From assembly GCA_028688375.1 (NCBI GenBank), contig JAQTYG010000007.1:1-52445 (forward strand): a DNA stretch of 52,445 nucleotides. The letters run 5' to 3'. Below the pieces are notes generated by a model that worked only from the letters and a program-made list of their open reading frames with translations, ran no database searches and was not told where the DNA came from. The DNA comes from Patescibacteria group bacterium. Its GTDB lineage: Bacteria; Patescibacteriota; Patescibacteriia; Magasanikbacterales; GWA2-37-8. Position numbers and translations under genes: made by a program. Below, piece after piece: positions 24,759 to 30,297 of the stretch (its first letter is position 1; each line of letters opens with the position of its first letter).

Positions 24759-24841
24759 ATTTTCTAATTATTAATTTATATTGTGAGACGCTGAGCGTCT
24801 CTGCAACAACGCCGAGCGTTGTGGGCAGGCTAGGATTTTCA

Positions 24842-24994
24842 CCCCTCACTTGCCCCATGTTAAGTGGGTGGACTAGGATTCGAACCTAGGAAGGCGGAGC
24901 CAGCAGATTTACAGTCTGCCCCAGTTGACCACTTTGGTATCCACCCATAAAAAATTATTTTTATCGCGAACAAATGAACGGGCAAGTGAGGGGC
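24842..24994. repeat. Inverted-repeat-bounded insert (CCCCTCACTTGCCC ... GGGCAAGTGAGGGG) carrying tRNA-Tyr
   Basis: 14-bp terminal inverted repeats; sits in the T-loop of the outer tRNA-Tyr. Confidence 0.85.
24865..24946 (-). tRNA. tRNA-Tyr(GTA), intact, intronless
   Basis: GGGTGGA/TCCACCC acceptor; anticodon loop ctGTAaa; T-arm CTAGGTTCGAATCCTAG; long variable arm. Confidence 0.93.
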
Positions 24995-25023
24995 GGGCCT
25001 AGGAAGGCGGAGCTAGCAGATTT

Positions 25024-25223
25024 CACTAACCCAAAAGTTTCCTTTTGGCATGGACTATATCTTTACCCGCGAGGGGTACTTTGGTATCTAGTCTCTACGG
25101 CGCCCCAATTAAAATTAAATCGGGTTCCCACGGTATTGGCATGTCCGCCGTCGGCGGATTTAGCTTTCACCGTTATCCCAAAGAGTTTCATCTCAAGGTT
25201 GCCCTTGGGAGCTGCAATTATTT
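25024..25223 (-). ncRNA. Group I intron inserted in the tRNA-Tyr anticodon (between U35 and A36)
   Basis: P-like AACGGUGAAAGCUAAAUCCGCC; Q-like CAAUACCGUGGGAACCC; R-like GCCGUAGAGACUAGAU; S AAGAUAUAGUCC; P1 CUGU/GCAG with U-G pair at the 5' splice site; 3' terminal G. Confidence 0.88.
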
Positions 25224-25280
25224 ACAGTCTGCCCCAGTTGGCCACTTTGGTACCTGCCCAAAACAAATTTTTTTCCTCCG

Positions 25281-25320
25281 AGCCACCTGTCGGGCTCGGA
25301 CCGACGACCTACGGTTTACC
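25281..25320 (-). pseudogene. tRNA-Thr(GGU)-like 3'-half remnant
   Basis: GGTAAACCGTAGGTCGTCGGTCCGAGCCCGACAGGTGGCT aligns without gaps to the 3' half of the intact tRNA-Thr(GGT) at 30675; no matching 5' half. Confidence 0.7.
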
Positions 25321-25336
25321 TGCCCGACACGCCTAG

Positions 25337-25409
25337 AGCCGTCTCTCGGATTCGAACCGAGGACCTTCACTTTACAAAAGTGTTGCTCTGCCAGCTGAGC
25401 TAAGACGGC
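25337..25409 (-). tRNA. tRNA-Thr(TGT)
   Basis: GCCGTCT/AGACGGC acceptor; anticodon loop TTTGTAA; T-arm CTCGGTTCGAATCCGAG. Confidence 0.92.
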
Positions 25410-25605: not shown

Positions 25606-28600
25606 TTATCCCTGCGTCTTATCCGTCAACGCCTTGATCTCGGCGGTGATGGTGGCGCCCTTGGTCATGCCCTCAATGGCTGAGGCCGAGAGGGTGCGGA
25701 TGAACTTGGTCTGGAAGCCGTTGGCGGTTAAGCCGGCGGCGGTGACTTCCCGGAGCTGGTTGTCGGTGTCCACGTAGTAAGTGACGGTGCCGACTTTAAT
25801 CAGCATGCCCGGATGGGGTTTGGCCGTGGTGACATCGGTGCCACGATTGACGTAATGGGGCCAGAACGGATCGGCGACGGTCATGACCTTGTAAGCGGCG
25901 CCATAGAGCGAGGTGGCCAGGGCCGGGGTGATTTTAGCCAACTTGTTGCTCGGTTCCACGACGTACAATTGGTCGGAGGAGGCGCGTTTAACCACGTAAG
26001 AACCCGGGTGGTAGTTGACCGCGGCCGGATAGGAGATTGGGACATTCAATGAGTCAAAACAGGTTTGAGAGATGGTCTGATATCCGCCATAGGTCGGGCG
26101 CCAGGATTTAAACTCATCGCCGGAGGGGAAGTAGAGAATCTTTAAGGCGCTGTTCACGGCGTAGATGGCCGGTTTGCCGGATACTTTGACCATGTCGCCA
26201 GCCACTAAGGTCGGACAGCCCACGCCACCGGCCGGCGGAGCGACCACATCACCGGTGATGTTCTTGGTCAGGGTGACGGTTTGGACGGCGGAGTCGCCAC
26301 CGGAAGCAGAACGGAATTTAACATAAATGGTCTTGGCGCCATTGCCCGCGGACAAGGTGAAGGACTTGGAAGCGGCGTAGGTCTCCCAGGTACCGCCGGC
26401 GAAGGCGGAATTTTCCGAGATGGCCACCAGGGAAGCGTTAGTCGCGCTGAGCAACAGGGTTACGGCCGGAGTGGTCACGGTGGTGCCACCGCTAACGGTG
26501 ACCGCCGGACTGCCTAACACCGGGTAAGTGATATTGACACTGCCGCCGCCACCGGTGGTGCCGGAGCCGGTGCCGCCGGCGGAGTAAGCGGTGCCATAGA
26601 AGGACGCGGTGTCTGAACCGGTATCAGTGCTGTCTTTGGAATCAGTGTAAGCCAGGGTGAGCGCGCCGGAACCGGATACTTGCAAGGTGCCGTCATTGGC
26701 CGCGGCCACGGCGGCCACGCTGAACGGGATGGCGGCGCTGCGGAAGATGCCGGTATCAACGCCGGTTTCCGTTAAGGTTATGGCCTCGGAATCCGAGCGG
26801 GTGTTTTCCGTTAAGGTGATGGAAATGGTCTCCACCAAATTGGCGTACTTGTTCGCGTCTTGTTCTTCCACTGTCACATAGGCGGAGTTGGTGCCAGTGT
26901 TCAACAAGGCCACTTCCGTGCCGGAACTGTCGGTGATTTTGGATGATTCGTGGGTGTGGATAATGACACCGAGTTCCGTGGTGGTGGCGTTGTTGTTGTA
27001 GGTGCCGGCGGCGTACAACAGCCCATCGGCAAACAAGGTGGTGGTGCCGTTGTTGGTGAAGGCGCCGGTGGAGGTGGTTTGCAGACCGAGCATGTAGATG
27101 CCGGAACCCAGGGTCAGGTCATAGTAGGAGGCGACCGTGGTGGTGACCGGGCCGGAACCGGTGTAGCGGACATCGGAAGTGCCCGGAGTGAAAGTGCCGG
27201 TCTTGATGAACGGCGTGCCATTGGCCGGCAGAGTGAGGTCGTAGGAACCACCAGTCAAGGTCTTGCCGGTATTAATGGTCATGGTGTTGGAACTGGTGAC
27301 ATTGCCGGCTAAAGTAACCGTGCCGGCGATGACCGTGGCGTAAAGCGTGGTGTTGCCGGTGCCACCGAGGGTTTTAGCCGTACCGGTTAAAGTGGTGGTA
27401 CCCGAAGTCTGGGTGATGGTACCCGAGTTGCCGATATTACCGGCGGCCACTAAGTCATAGGTGGATAGAGCCAGCGATCCGCCGGAGTTGACGGTTAAGT
27501 CATTGGTAGTCGTGGCCGAGTTCCCCAAAGTACCGGCCGTATTTACAATCAAATTGTAATACGTGGTGGAGGCGATGGTGGCCGAAGTGGCGCCAGCGTA
27601 AACCACCGTGGAGGTGGAACAGGTAAAGGTGCCGTTCTTAATTAGCGGTACGCCGGTCGCCTTAGACAGGACGATGTTGTAGGTGGCCGCGTCCAGGGTG
27701 CCGTTAACCGGAATCGTGAGGACATTGGTGGTGGTGACGTTGCCGGATAACGTGGCCGTGGAACTGACGGTGAGGTTGTAGTAAGTTCCGGTGGCCACGG
27801 CGTTAACAGCGCCTTCGTAATAGACCAAGGAGGTGGAGGCGGAGAAACTGCCGGTGCCGTTAATGACGAACGGCGCGCCAGAAGCCGCGATTAATTTAAT
27901 AGTACCGGCTCCACCGTTCAGGGAACTGCCGGTGTTGATGGTTAAGTAAGTAGTGGAAGTAACATCGCCCAGGAGGGTGGTGGAACCGCCGATGACCAGG
28001 TTATACAGGTCGGTGATACCGGTACCGCCGAGGGTTTTGCTGGCGCCGGTTGTTCTAACCGTACCGCCAGTTTGAATGATAGACCCGGAGTTCACGACAT
28101 TGCCGGCAGCGGCCAAATCGTAGGTAGATAAATTCAACGACATGCCGGAATTGACAGTCAAGTCACCGGTAGTGGTAACGCTGGCGCCTAAAGTACCGAC
28201 GGTGTTAACGGTCAAACCATAATAGGCTCCGCCCGGAATAGTCGCGTCAGTCGCCCCGGAGAAAATCACCAAGGACGTGGCCGGGGTAAAGGTGCCGGTT
28301 CTGACCAGCGGTGAGCCGGTGGCTTTGGTTAAAAGAATGTTGTAAGCGCCACCACCAACTAATTCTTTATTGGCGCTAATAGTCAAAATATTGGTCGTGG
28401 TCACGCTACCGGCCAAAGTGGTAGTCGCGCCGGAAATGGTTAGGTTAAACAAGGTGGTGTTACCGGTTCCGCCCAAAGTAGCATTGGCGCCACTCATGGT
28501 AACTGTGCCAGACGCTTCCTGCGTGGTCGTACCGGAATTGGCAAGATTGCCGGATAAGGCTAAATCATAAGTGGACAGAGCCATGGTGGCGTTGGCATTG

Positions 28601-30297
28601 ACGGTTAAATTATTGCCCACGGTCAAATTCGCGCTGGGGGTAGCCGTGCCGGCGCCAATGGTTAAATTATAATAAGTGGAAGAAGCGAGAGTGGCGCTGG
28701 AGTTGGTATACATGACATTGGAAGTGGACGCGGTGAAAAGCGCGCCGGTTTTATCCAATGGCGTACCGGTGCCGGGCAGAGTCAAGGTGAAATTCCCCGC
28801 CACTAATTCTCTATCAGCGCTGATTTTTAATTGATTAGTCGTGGTCACGTTACCGGCCAAAGTAGTGGTCGCGCCTTGGATAGTCAAGTTGTAGAGTGTG
28901 GTATTACCGGTACCGCCCAAAGTGACGTTCACGCCGTACATGGTAACCAAACCACTGGCCGCTTGAGTAATAGTGCCGGAATTGGCGATACTGCTGGACG
29001 CCACAAAATTATAGGTGGACAAAGCCAGCGATTTGCCGGAATTGACCGTTAAATTACCGGTGGTGGTCGCGCTATTCCCCAAAGTACCGGCAGTATTAAC
29101 TATCAAGTTGTAGTAGGTGGTAGAAGCAATCGTGGCCGAGGTGCTGCCGGAGTAAACCACGGTAGAAGCGGAACAGGTGAAAGTACCGTTCTTAATCAAT
29201 GGCACACCGCTTTCTTTCGTCAACACGATGTTGTAAGAAGCAGCGTCAAGTGTGCCGTTAACCGGAATGGTCAGGACATTGGTGGTGGTAACATGGCCGG
29301 AAAGCGTGGCAGTGGAACTGACGGTCAGGTTGTAGTAAGTTCCGGTAGCCACGGCATTGACGGCGCCTTCATAATAAACCAAGGAAGTGGAGGCGGAGAA
29401 ACTGCCGGTGCCGTTAATCACAAACGGCGCGCCTGAGGTCTTGGTTAATTTGATGGTGCCGGCTCCGCCGACCAGGGAACTGCCGGTGTTAATCGTTAAA
29501 ACATTGGTGGAGGTAACATCACCCAAAATGGTGGTGGAACCGCCGATGATCAGGTTGTAGAGGTCGGTAATGCCGGTGCCGCCGAGGGTTTTGCTGGCGC
29601 CGGTTGTTCTGACTGAACCACCGGTTTGAACGATAGCGCCGGAGTTTGATAAGTTACCGGCTAAGGCCAAACTGTTAGTACCCAAAATCAAAGTACCGCT
29701 AGAATTTATAGTTATGTCGCCGGTTGTAGTAACATCGCCGGTTACTGTGCGGTCGTTGTCAATAATCAAATTAGGAAACGCAAAACTCGTAAGAGCACTG
29801 GTGGTGACTACTATGGTCTTACTGGCGCCATAAAGTCTAATCGTCGGGCTCGATAATCCGACCCAAGTTCCCGTGGCAATAGTAAAGTTACCGCCTATAT
29901 TCCACACGCCGCTGCCGGTGGTGGAAACAGTACCGCCATTTTGCAAAAAATTGCCTGTGGAGGTGGCCGTGGCCGCGCCAATTGTGATTACTCCGGTGTA
30001 GTCGTTGTTGACGGTAATCGCGGCTGTTGTTGTCATGGTGGCGTCCCAAGTAGCGTAAGTGGTGGTAGCGGCGCCATCAAAAATCAAGTTGCTACCCGCA
30101 ACATCAGCACAAGGACCTTGAGACCCATCATCCCAATTTGTCGCCAAACTCATGAGATGGCTGGTAGAGGCAGTCCAAGTGCAATTCACCGCCTTGGCCG
30201 GCGCCGCATTAAATAAAAACCAGGCCCCGGCGATTAATACCGCCACCATGGCCAGACCGCTCCGGCGAAAGGAAAACATATTTTTTATGTTACTCAT
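25606..30297 (-). CDS. Large repeat-rich secreted/surface (S-layer-like) protein, 1563 aa
   Basis: Signal peptide; many TTTG(D/N)LTVNSG.../LGGTGxTxLYNLxIxGxTTxLxGxVTxTNxLTI repeats; distinct C-terminal domain. Confidence 0.9.
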   Translation of the reverse strand: MSNIKNMFSFRRSGLAMVAVLIAGAWFLFNAAPAKAVNCTWTASTSHLMSLATNWDDGSQGPCADVAGSNLIFDGAATTTYATWDATMTTTAAITVNNDYTGVITIGAATATSTGNFLQNGGTVSTTGSGVWNIGGNFTIATGTWVGLSSPTIRLYGASKTIVVTTSALTSFAFPNLIIDNDRTVTGDVTTTGDITINSSGTLILGTNSLALAGNLSNSGAIVQTGGSVRTTGASKTLGGTGITDLYNLIIGGSTTILGDVTSTNVLTINTGSSLVGGAGTIKLTKTSGAPFVINGTGSFSASTSLVYYEGAVNAVATGTYYNLTVSSTATLSGHVTTTNVLTIPVNGTLDAASYNIVLTKESGVPLIKNGTFTCSASTVVYSGSTSATIASTTYYNLIVNTAGTLGNSATTTGNLTVNSGKSLALSTYNFVASSSIANSGTITQAASGLVTMYGVNVTLGGTGNTTLYNLTIQGATTTLAGNVTTTNQLKISADRELVAGNFTLTLPGTGTPLDKTGALFTASTSNVMYTNSSATLASSTYYNLTIGAGTATPSANLTVGNNLTVNANATMALSTYDLALSGNLANSGTTTQEASGTVTMSGANATLGGTGNTTLFNLTISGATTTLAGSVTTTNILTISANKELVGGGAYNILLTKATGSPLVRTGTFTPATSLVIFSGATDATIPGGAYYGLTVNTVGTLGASVTTTGDLTVNSGMSLNLSTYDLAAAGNVVNSGSIIQTGGTVRTTGASKTLGGTGITDLYNLVIGGSTTLLGDVTSTTYLTINTGSSLNGGAGTIKLIAASGAPFVINGTGSFSASTSLVYYEGAVNAVATGTYYNLTVSSTATLSGNVTTTNVLTIPVNGTLDAATYNIVLSKATGVPLIKNGTFTCSTSTVVYAGATSATIASTTYYNLIVNTAGTLGNSATTTNDLTVNSGGSLALSTYDLVAAGNIGNSGTITQTSGTTTLTGTAKTLGGTGNTTLYATVIAGTVTLAGNVTSSNTMTINTGKTLTGGSYDLTLPANGTPFIKTGTFTPGTSDVRYTGSGPVTTTVASYYDLTLGSGIYMLGLQTTSTGAFTNNGTTTLFADGLLYAAGTYNNNATTTELGVIIHTHESSKITDSSGTEVALLNTGTNSAYVTVEEQDANKYANLVETISITLTENTRSDSEAITLTETGVDTGIFRSAAIPFSVAAVAAANDGTLQVSGSGALTLAYTDSKDSTDTGSDTASFYGTAYSAGGTGSGTTGGGGSVNITYPVLGSPAVTVSGGTTVTTPAVTLLLSATNASLVAISENSAFAGGTWETYAASKSFTLSAGNGAKTIYVKFRSASGGDSAVQTVTLTKNITGDVVAPPAGGVGCPTLVAGDMVKVSGKPAIYAVNSALKILYFPSGDEFKSWRPTYGGYQTISQTCFDSLNVPISYPAAVNYHPGSYVVKRASSDQLYVVEPSNKLAKITPALATSLYGAAYKVMTVADPFWPHYVNRGTDVTTAKPHPGMLIKVGTVTYYVDTDNQLREVTAAGLTANGFQTKFIRTLSASAIEGMTKGATITAEIKALTDKTQG

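Follow-up and report, generated by a model that had tools for sequence, protein, structure and literature searches.

The window analysed here is the whole stretch of 52,445 nucleotides from a Patescibacteria group bacterium (contig JAQTYG010000007.1 of assembly GCA_028688375.1). Between 24.8 and 25.4 kb, its minus strand carries in order tRNA-Thr(TGT), a tRNA fragment, the 5' half of an outer tRNA-Tyr, a 200-nt insert, the middle of the outer tRNA-Tyr, an intact tRNA-Tyr, the 3' end of the outer tRNA-Tyr, and rpmG. The features of this locus are as follows.

25336–25409, minus strand: tRNA-Thr(TGT), the upstream neighbour in a conserved Thr-Tyr-rpmG cluster
25280–25325, minus strand: chimeric fragment identified by local alignments, the 5' end of tRNA-Tyr (GGGCAGGTA) followed by the 3' half of tRNA-Thr
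25224–25259, minus strand: 5' exon of the outer tRNA-Tyr, from the acceptor 5' strand GGGCAGG to U35, orthologous by sequence to the tRNA-Tyr (GGGCAGG...) of genome G001
25024–25223, minus strand: group I intron of 200 nt with a terminal G and no ORF of its own, identified by its match to RF00028, by alignment and covariation with 14 others, and by an exact empty site
25178–25183, minus strand: 5' strand of P3 (CUUUGG), pairing with CCAAAG at 25079–25084; double-sided changes in 3 of 6 pairs, 100% of cells paired
25089–25093, minus strand: 5' strand of P7 (GACUA), pairing with UAGUC at 25053–25057; invariant in 15 of 15 introns
24998–25023, minus strand: exon 2 of the outer tRNA-Tyr, from A36 to the T-stem 5' strand (AAATCTGC...CTAGG); 96% identical to the inner copy
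24835–24997, minus strand: second insertion with T-loop remnants, 163 nt between the outer T-stem strands, recognized by sequence and fold; absent in relatives, in which the T-loop is intact
24980–24993, minus strand: left arm of a perfect 14-bp inverted repeat that encloses the inner tRNA
24864–24946, minus strand: inner, intact and intronless tRNA-Tyr(GTA), called by ARAGORN and by Rfam RF00005 (56.8 bits); searches of the genome itself gave no other intact copy
24842–24855, minus strand: right arm of the inverted repeat
24822–24834, minus strand: 3' end of the outer tRNA-Tyr, CCTAGCCTGCCCA, comprising the 3' strands of T-stem and acceptor stem and the discriminator A; it forms 12 of 12 Watson-Crick pairs with the 5' strands CTAGG and GGGCAGG, and rpmG comes next, as in G001

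The cluster is adjoined by an ORF of 1563 codons (25606–30297), which is repetitive and probably encodes a secreted protein.

A group I intron within the anticodon of tRNA-Tyr

The 200-nt insert is a group I intron, located between U35 and A36 in the anticodon of the outer tRNA-Tyr(GUA). A sequence-only reading of this DNA had claimed such an intron and proposed an Infernal search with the Rfam model RF00028; on the minus strand this gave a match at 25031–25234 of 58 bits, above the gathering threshold of 50 (E = 3.3e-12). The claim is supported by the Rfam score, by the sequence of the core, by covariation and by a naturally occurring allele that lacks the intron, and every segment that the reading had named was found where it had placed it. 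It had further stated that removal of the 200 nt exactly restores sequence of the intact tRNA-Tyr. Excision of 25024–25223 indeed joins ...GACTGT to AAATC..., and the resulting fusion of GGCAGACTGT to AAATCTGC matches the intact copy at 24864–24946. Plus-strand ORFs that run across the intron were rejected as apparently spurious antisense frames of the tRNA genes.

The structure was examined in an alignment of 15 introns, comprising that of the window and 14 homologues. Helices P1 to P9, including the pseudoknotted P3/P7, account for 47 pairs, with 96.2% of the cells paired and double-sided changes at 25 pairs. None of 500 shuffled controls reached the observed covariation, and slid controls were only 32–45% paired, far below the alignment itself. 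P3, which is part of the pseudoknot, has its three doubly changed pairs without a single break in the 15 introns. The U.G pair of P1, P4, P7 and the terminal G do not vary among the 15; the search pattern that found the homologues had included part of P7 as well as the terminal G, but not P1, P3 or P4. The proposed U.G pair at the 5' splice site (CUGU/GCAG) and the terminal G are thus borne out as invariant features. Minimum-energy folding of one sequence did not recover the whole core, as is expected for a pseudoknotted ribozyme.

Inspection of the alignment revealed a GAAA loop at L9 in 15 of 15 introns, a GNRA loop at L2, and, in most of the 15, a tetraloop-receptor-like motif in P5 (of the form GCUAAG...UAUGC). 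Based on established knowledge of the Azoarcus ribozyme, we take this combination to mark the IC3 type, and these motifs therefore point to an IC3, Azoarcus-like tRNA intron without an ORF. The hairpin UCCGCCgacGGCGGA, previously described as P5-like, does belong to the P5 region, but in detail it is the P5 extension (P5a). The window's intron departs from its homologues by a C/A mismatch in P2 and an additional A in J2/3, because of which its splicing may be weakened.

By analogy with the family, the internal guide GCAG would pair with the exon CUGU in the precursor, and an external guanosine bound in P7 would cut after U35. U35 would then be joined to A36, and the intron would leave with its terminal G.

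Distribution in Patescibacteria and dependence on splicing

A pattern built from P7 and the 3' exon of tRNA-Tyr was run over about 85,000 species genomes and yielded 17 matches. Three of these (L063, L065 and L071) were discarded as not being tRNA-Tyr introns; the other 14 are introns of the window's kind, inserted at the corresponding position of tRNA-Tyr. The search of related genomes that the earlier reading had suggested thus located the intron, at an identical position, in 14 other species genomes. The host records are named Moranbacteria/Moraniibacteriota, Yanofskybacteria, Magasanikbacteria, Peregrinibacteria, Peribacteria and Parcubacteria. The description of the site as unusual consequently stands against the classical list of bacterial tRNA introns, but not within the Patescibacteria, where the same intron and site occur in at least six named lineages. 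Removal of the intron in silico produced a perfect tRNA-Tyr by ARAGORN in 13 of the 13 introns that have a complete 3' half, this set omitting L072, whose 3' half is cut by the contig end, and the window's own intron with its broken host.

Within the window's order the intron occurs sporadically: a model of the tRNA-Tyr intron gave scores above 210 bits in 5 of 86 genomes. A sixth tRNA-Tyr intron, in G043, scores 124 bits and has a large P8; the P8 loop at this locus (L095, G043:C16) is greatly enlarged. The intron tree departs from a clean host taxonomy in that it places the window's intron together with the one from G056, a genome of another family, with modest support inside the group. Two genomes of one genus, G003 and G006, have tRNA-Tyr exons that are identical letter for letter, G003 without and G006 with a 185-nt intron at U35/A36. 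Judged by this comparison of sequences, the pair is a natural empty site, and it makes gain or loss of the intron directly testable. At another locus (L096, G051:C34) a tRNA-Tyr intron stops at NN and the sequence resumes as the 3' half of tRNA-Thr, which represents either an assembly gap or another Tyr/Thr chimera.

We also searched the draft genomes that carry the intron for an intronless tRNA-Tyr, using the anticodon sequence RACTGTAAATCYG as an exact pattern. RACTGTAAATCYG was absent from the intron-bearing genomes except for the inner copy in the window's own genome and one match in G034, where ARAGORN calls no tRNA. By this pattern search, the other intron-bearing genomes seem to have no tRNA-Tyr besides the interrupted one; therefore splicing is presumably essential there, provided that the drafts are complete, and would restore what is apparently their only tRNA-Tyr. 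Tyrosine decoding in many Patescibacteria thus probably hangs on ribozyme splicing of a single gene. Such interrupted tRNA-Tyr genes are missed by tRNA finders that lack an intron mode.

The outer gene and the tRNA-Tyr nested within it

The sequence-only reading had spoken of an outer tRNA-Tyr without spelling out that this gene has a further interruption, in the T-loop. The T-stem strands CTAGG and CCTAG of the outer gene now lie 163 nt apart, the TTC of the T-loop is missing, and exon 2 has one A/C mismatch in the stem of the V-arm. When the intron was removed and the insert kept, ARAGORN called the inner tRNA only, so that the outer gene fails as a complete cloverleaf; when the insert was removed as well to leave the loop TGAAAAT, the outer tRNA was accepted. 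The inner copy is the only intact tRNA-Tyr found by searches of the window's genome. This nested arrangement is known from one assembly, a draft in 33 contigs.

Comparison with other genomes identifies the older of the two genes. In the window's family, tRNA-Tyr usually adjoins tRNA-Thr(TGT), often close to rpmG and tRNA-Trp. G001 has a single uninterrupted tRNA-Tyr at the orthologous locus, and its rpmG protein and the window's are nearly identical at the N-terminus. Because this locus has the same acceptor stem as the outer gene (GGGCAGG/CCTGCCC) and the same rpmG neighbour, the outer gene is taken to be the ancestral one. In the chimera at 25280–25325, nine bases from the start of tRNA-Tyr run on into the 3' half of a tRNA-Thr; as read from its alignments, this fragment is left over from duplication and deletion that affected the cluster. 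Allowing up to one mismatch, the genome contains no further copy of the 14-bp repeat, and none was present in the other loci that were fetched. A repeat-family transposon is not supported as the source of the inverted repeat, since the 14-mer does not recur in the genome and no target-site duplication is visible.

Taken as a whole, the locus is very likely a group I intron in an outer tRNA-Tyr whose T-loop was probably split later by an insert bearing an intact tRNA-Tyr. The cell most likely relies on the inner gene now, and the outer gene is probably a young pseudogene in which the intron is stranded. In the outer transcript the intron would very probably still splice, the product probably being no working tRNA. 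With its host broken and an intronless tRNA-Tyr inside, the window may represent an escape from dependence on splicing.

Several other explanations were weighed against this one. The locus could be the remnant of a tandem array of three tRNA-Tyr copies, the first cut after the T-stem 5' strand, the middle one intact and the last reduced to its 3' end, with no insertion into a T-loop at all. In favour of this, the Tyr/Thr chimera demonstrates past duplication and deletion in the cluster, pairing between strands would be expected of any copies of a single gene, and leader and body are alike in the inner and outer copies. Two independent truncations would not, however, be expected to leave a perfect 14-bp repeat exactly around the inner unit, and the outer 3' end lies at the orthologous place ahead of rpmG; we regard this origin as unlikely, though a serious contender. 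A different possibility is that both tRNAs are made, the inner one being released by RNase P and 3' processing, and the outer one becoming functional after splicing once the T-loop insert is removed or with a nick left on an extended T-arm. The fully paired outer acceptor and T-stems (12 of 12), the lengthening of the T-arm helix by the inverted repeat, and the ARAGORN score of the outer tRNA with the loop TGAAAAT are compatible with this. Against it, neither side of the insert retains the TTC consensus of the T-loop, there is a mismatch in the V-arm stem, a complete tRNA-Tyr is already present, and we know of no ligation route for such a T-loop gap, so that functional use of both genes seems very improbable.

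The remaining explanations concern the intron itself. It might be a degenerate remnant that no longer splices, as could be supposed from its probably dead host and from the small departures in P2 and J2/3. Its core, guide, splice-site pairs and helices P3 to P9 are nonetheless intact, and its 58 bits against RF00028 exceed the 54.9 bits of G006 and the 49.5 bits of G007, both of which lie in otherwise normal tRNA-Tyr genes; loss of splicing is accordingly improbable. That there is no intron, and that the core motifs arose by chance or belong to some other inserted RNA, was discarded as having next to no likelihood given the Rfam match, the covariation, the exact empty site in congeners and the recurrence at one site in six lineages.

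A neighbouring HTH gene and known intron systems

Of 16 intron-bearing tRNA-Tyr loci, 7 have an ORF of approximately 200 codons, encoding a helix-turn-helix (HTH) protein, directly upstream of the tRNA and on its strand, at 4–138 nt from the 5' end of the tRNA and in one case overlapping it by 14 nt; 9 of the 16 have this ORF within 1.4 kb. In the window's family, 21 intronless loci were compared; the HTH ORF was upstream in none of them and downstream in two. Fisher tests of the association between ORF and intron gave p = 0.001 and 0.003 for these 16 versus 21 loci, which are not phylogenetically matched, so that the association is suggestive. The HTH ORFs at six intron-bearing loci (L072:254–859, L066:1724–2347, L060:1428–2060, L061:4081–4692, L062:5688–6326 and L095:797–1471) end within about 12 nt of the 5' end of tRNA-Tyr or overlap it. 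Some relatives of the ORF sit in loci fetched for tRNA-Phe introns. Beside the window's intron the HTH gene is absent; four distant relatives occur elsewhere in the genome.

The HTH of the encoded protein is at its N-terminus, and its C-terminal domain contains the motif LLIAGxMLYYGEGAK. In Pfam and NCBIfam, most matches were weak and of HTH type, and the C-terminal half had no convincing one. The AlphaFold model of the protein is confident (pLDDT 89.5); Foldseek found no significant match to it among solved structures in the PDB, and weak matches to LAGLIDADG proteins in a viral library. The protein is possibly of LAGLIDADG type.

Group I introns in bacterial tRNA genes are a known kind (PMC4033280, PMC3984707, PMC5733544), for which the hosts given are Leu, fMet, Ile and Arg, and in cyanobacteria also Gly and Lys, Tyr being absent there (PMC4033280, PMC5733544, PMC8450103). 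The window's intron resembles the IC3 introns of Azoarcus tRNA-Ile(CAU), cyanobacterial tRNA-Leu(UAA) and Agrobacterium tRNA-Arg(CCU) in its length of about 200 nt, its lack of an ORF, its place in the anticodon loop, the U.G at the 5' splice site, the terminal G, the GNRA loops L2 and L9, and the tetraloop-receptor-like motif of P5. It differs from them in its host tRNA-Tyr(GUA), its site at U35/A36 and its phylum, the Patescibacteria, and thus adds a host to the bacterial tRNA introns. A 2025 preprint by Nakagawa et al. (bioRxiv 10.1101/2025.07.03.662931) reportedly describes tRNA group I introns of Patescibacteria, and its title is said to name a novel insertion site, possibly U35/A36 of tRNA-Tyr; it probably covers this class of introns. 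The window's intron shares phylum and class of host gene with such introns, but a second insertion in the T-loop with a nested tRNA appears nowhere in the literature examined. As far as we have checked that literature, it describes neither the nested replacement tRNA nor the HTH ORF beside the tRNA genes, although the HTH ORF may fall within the work of Nakagawa et al. 2025.

tRNAs with group I introns are also mentioned for mostly CPR genomes by Lui et al. 2021 (PMC8172020). The group I introns of CPR rRNA genes, which often contain LAGLIDADG genes, were treated by Tsurumaki et al. 2024 (PMC11270868), a paper that leaves tRNA genes aside. Phylum and a structural RNA gene as host are common to these rRNA introns and to those described here; the former are in rRNA and often have an internal LAGLIDADG gene, whereas the latter are in tRNA and lack an ORF. 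Another parallel may be the collaborative homing of phages, in which a free-standing endonuclease acts with an ORF-less intron (PMC3984707). Both have an ORF-less intron and a separate gene for a DNA-binding protein, possibly a nuclease, which here lies within 1.4 kb at 9 of 16 loci. The differences are that the host is a cellular tRNA gene rather than a phage, that the protein here is a putative nuclease, and that the gene is missing beside the window's intron. Based on this analogy, homing of the tRNA-Tyr intron in trans by means of the neighbouring HTH gene is plausible, and the HTH protein suggests how an ORF-less intron could spread among tRNA genes. The fuller proposal is that these introns were moved in trans by a free-standing, LAGLIDADG-like HTH protein encoded flush with the tRNA 5' end, and that the window, with this gene lost and its tRNA replaced by a nested intronless copy, is near the end of the homing cycle; we offer it tentatively and consider it rather doubtful.

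Two further RF00028 matches in the window's genome (L003 and L004, G000:C32) lie on a contig with 23S rRNA-like flanks. Additional loci were flagged at L002 (G000:C22:91100–91362), L005 and L028, one of this kind being in the window's own genome.
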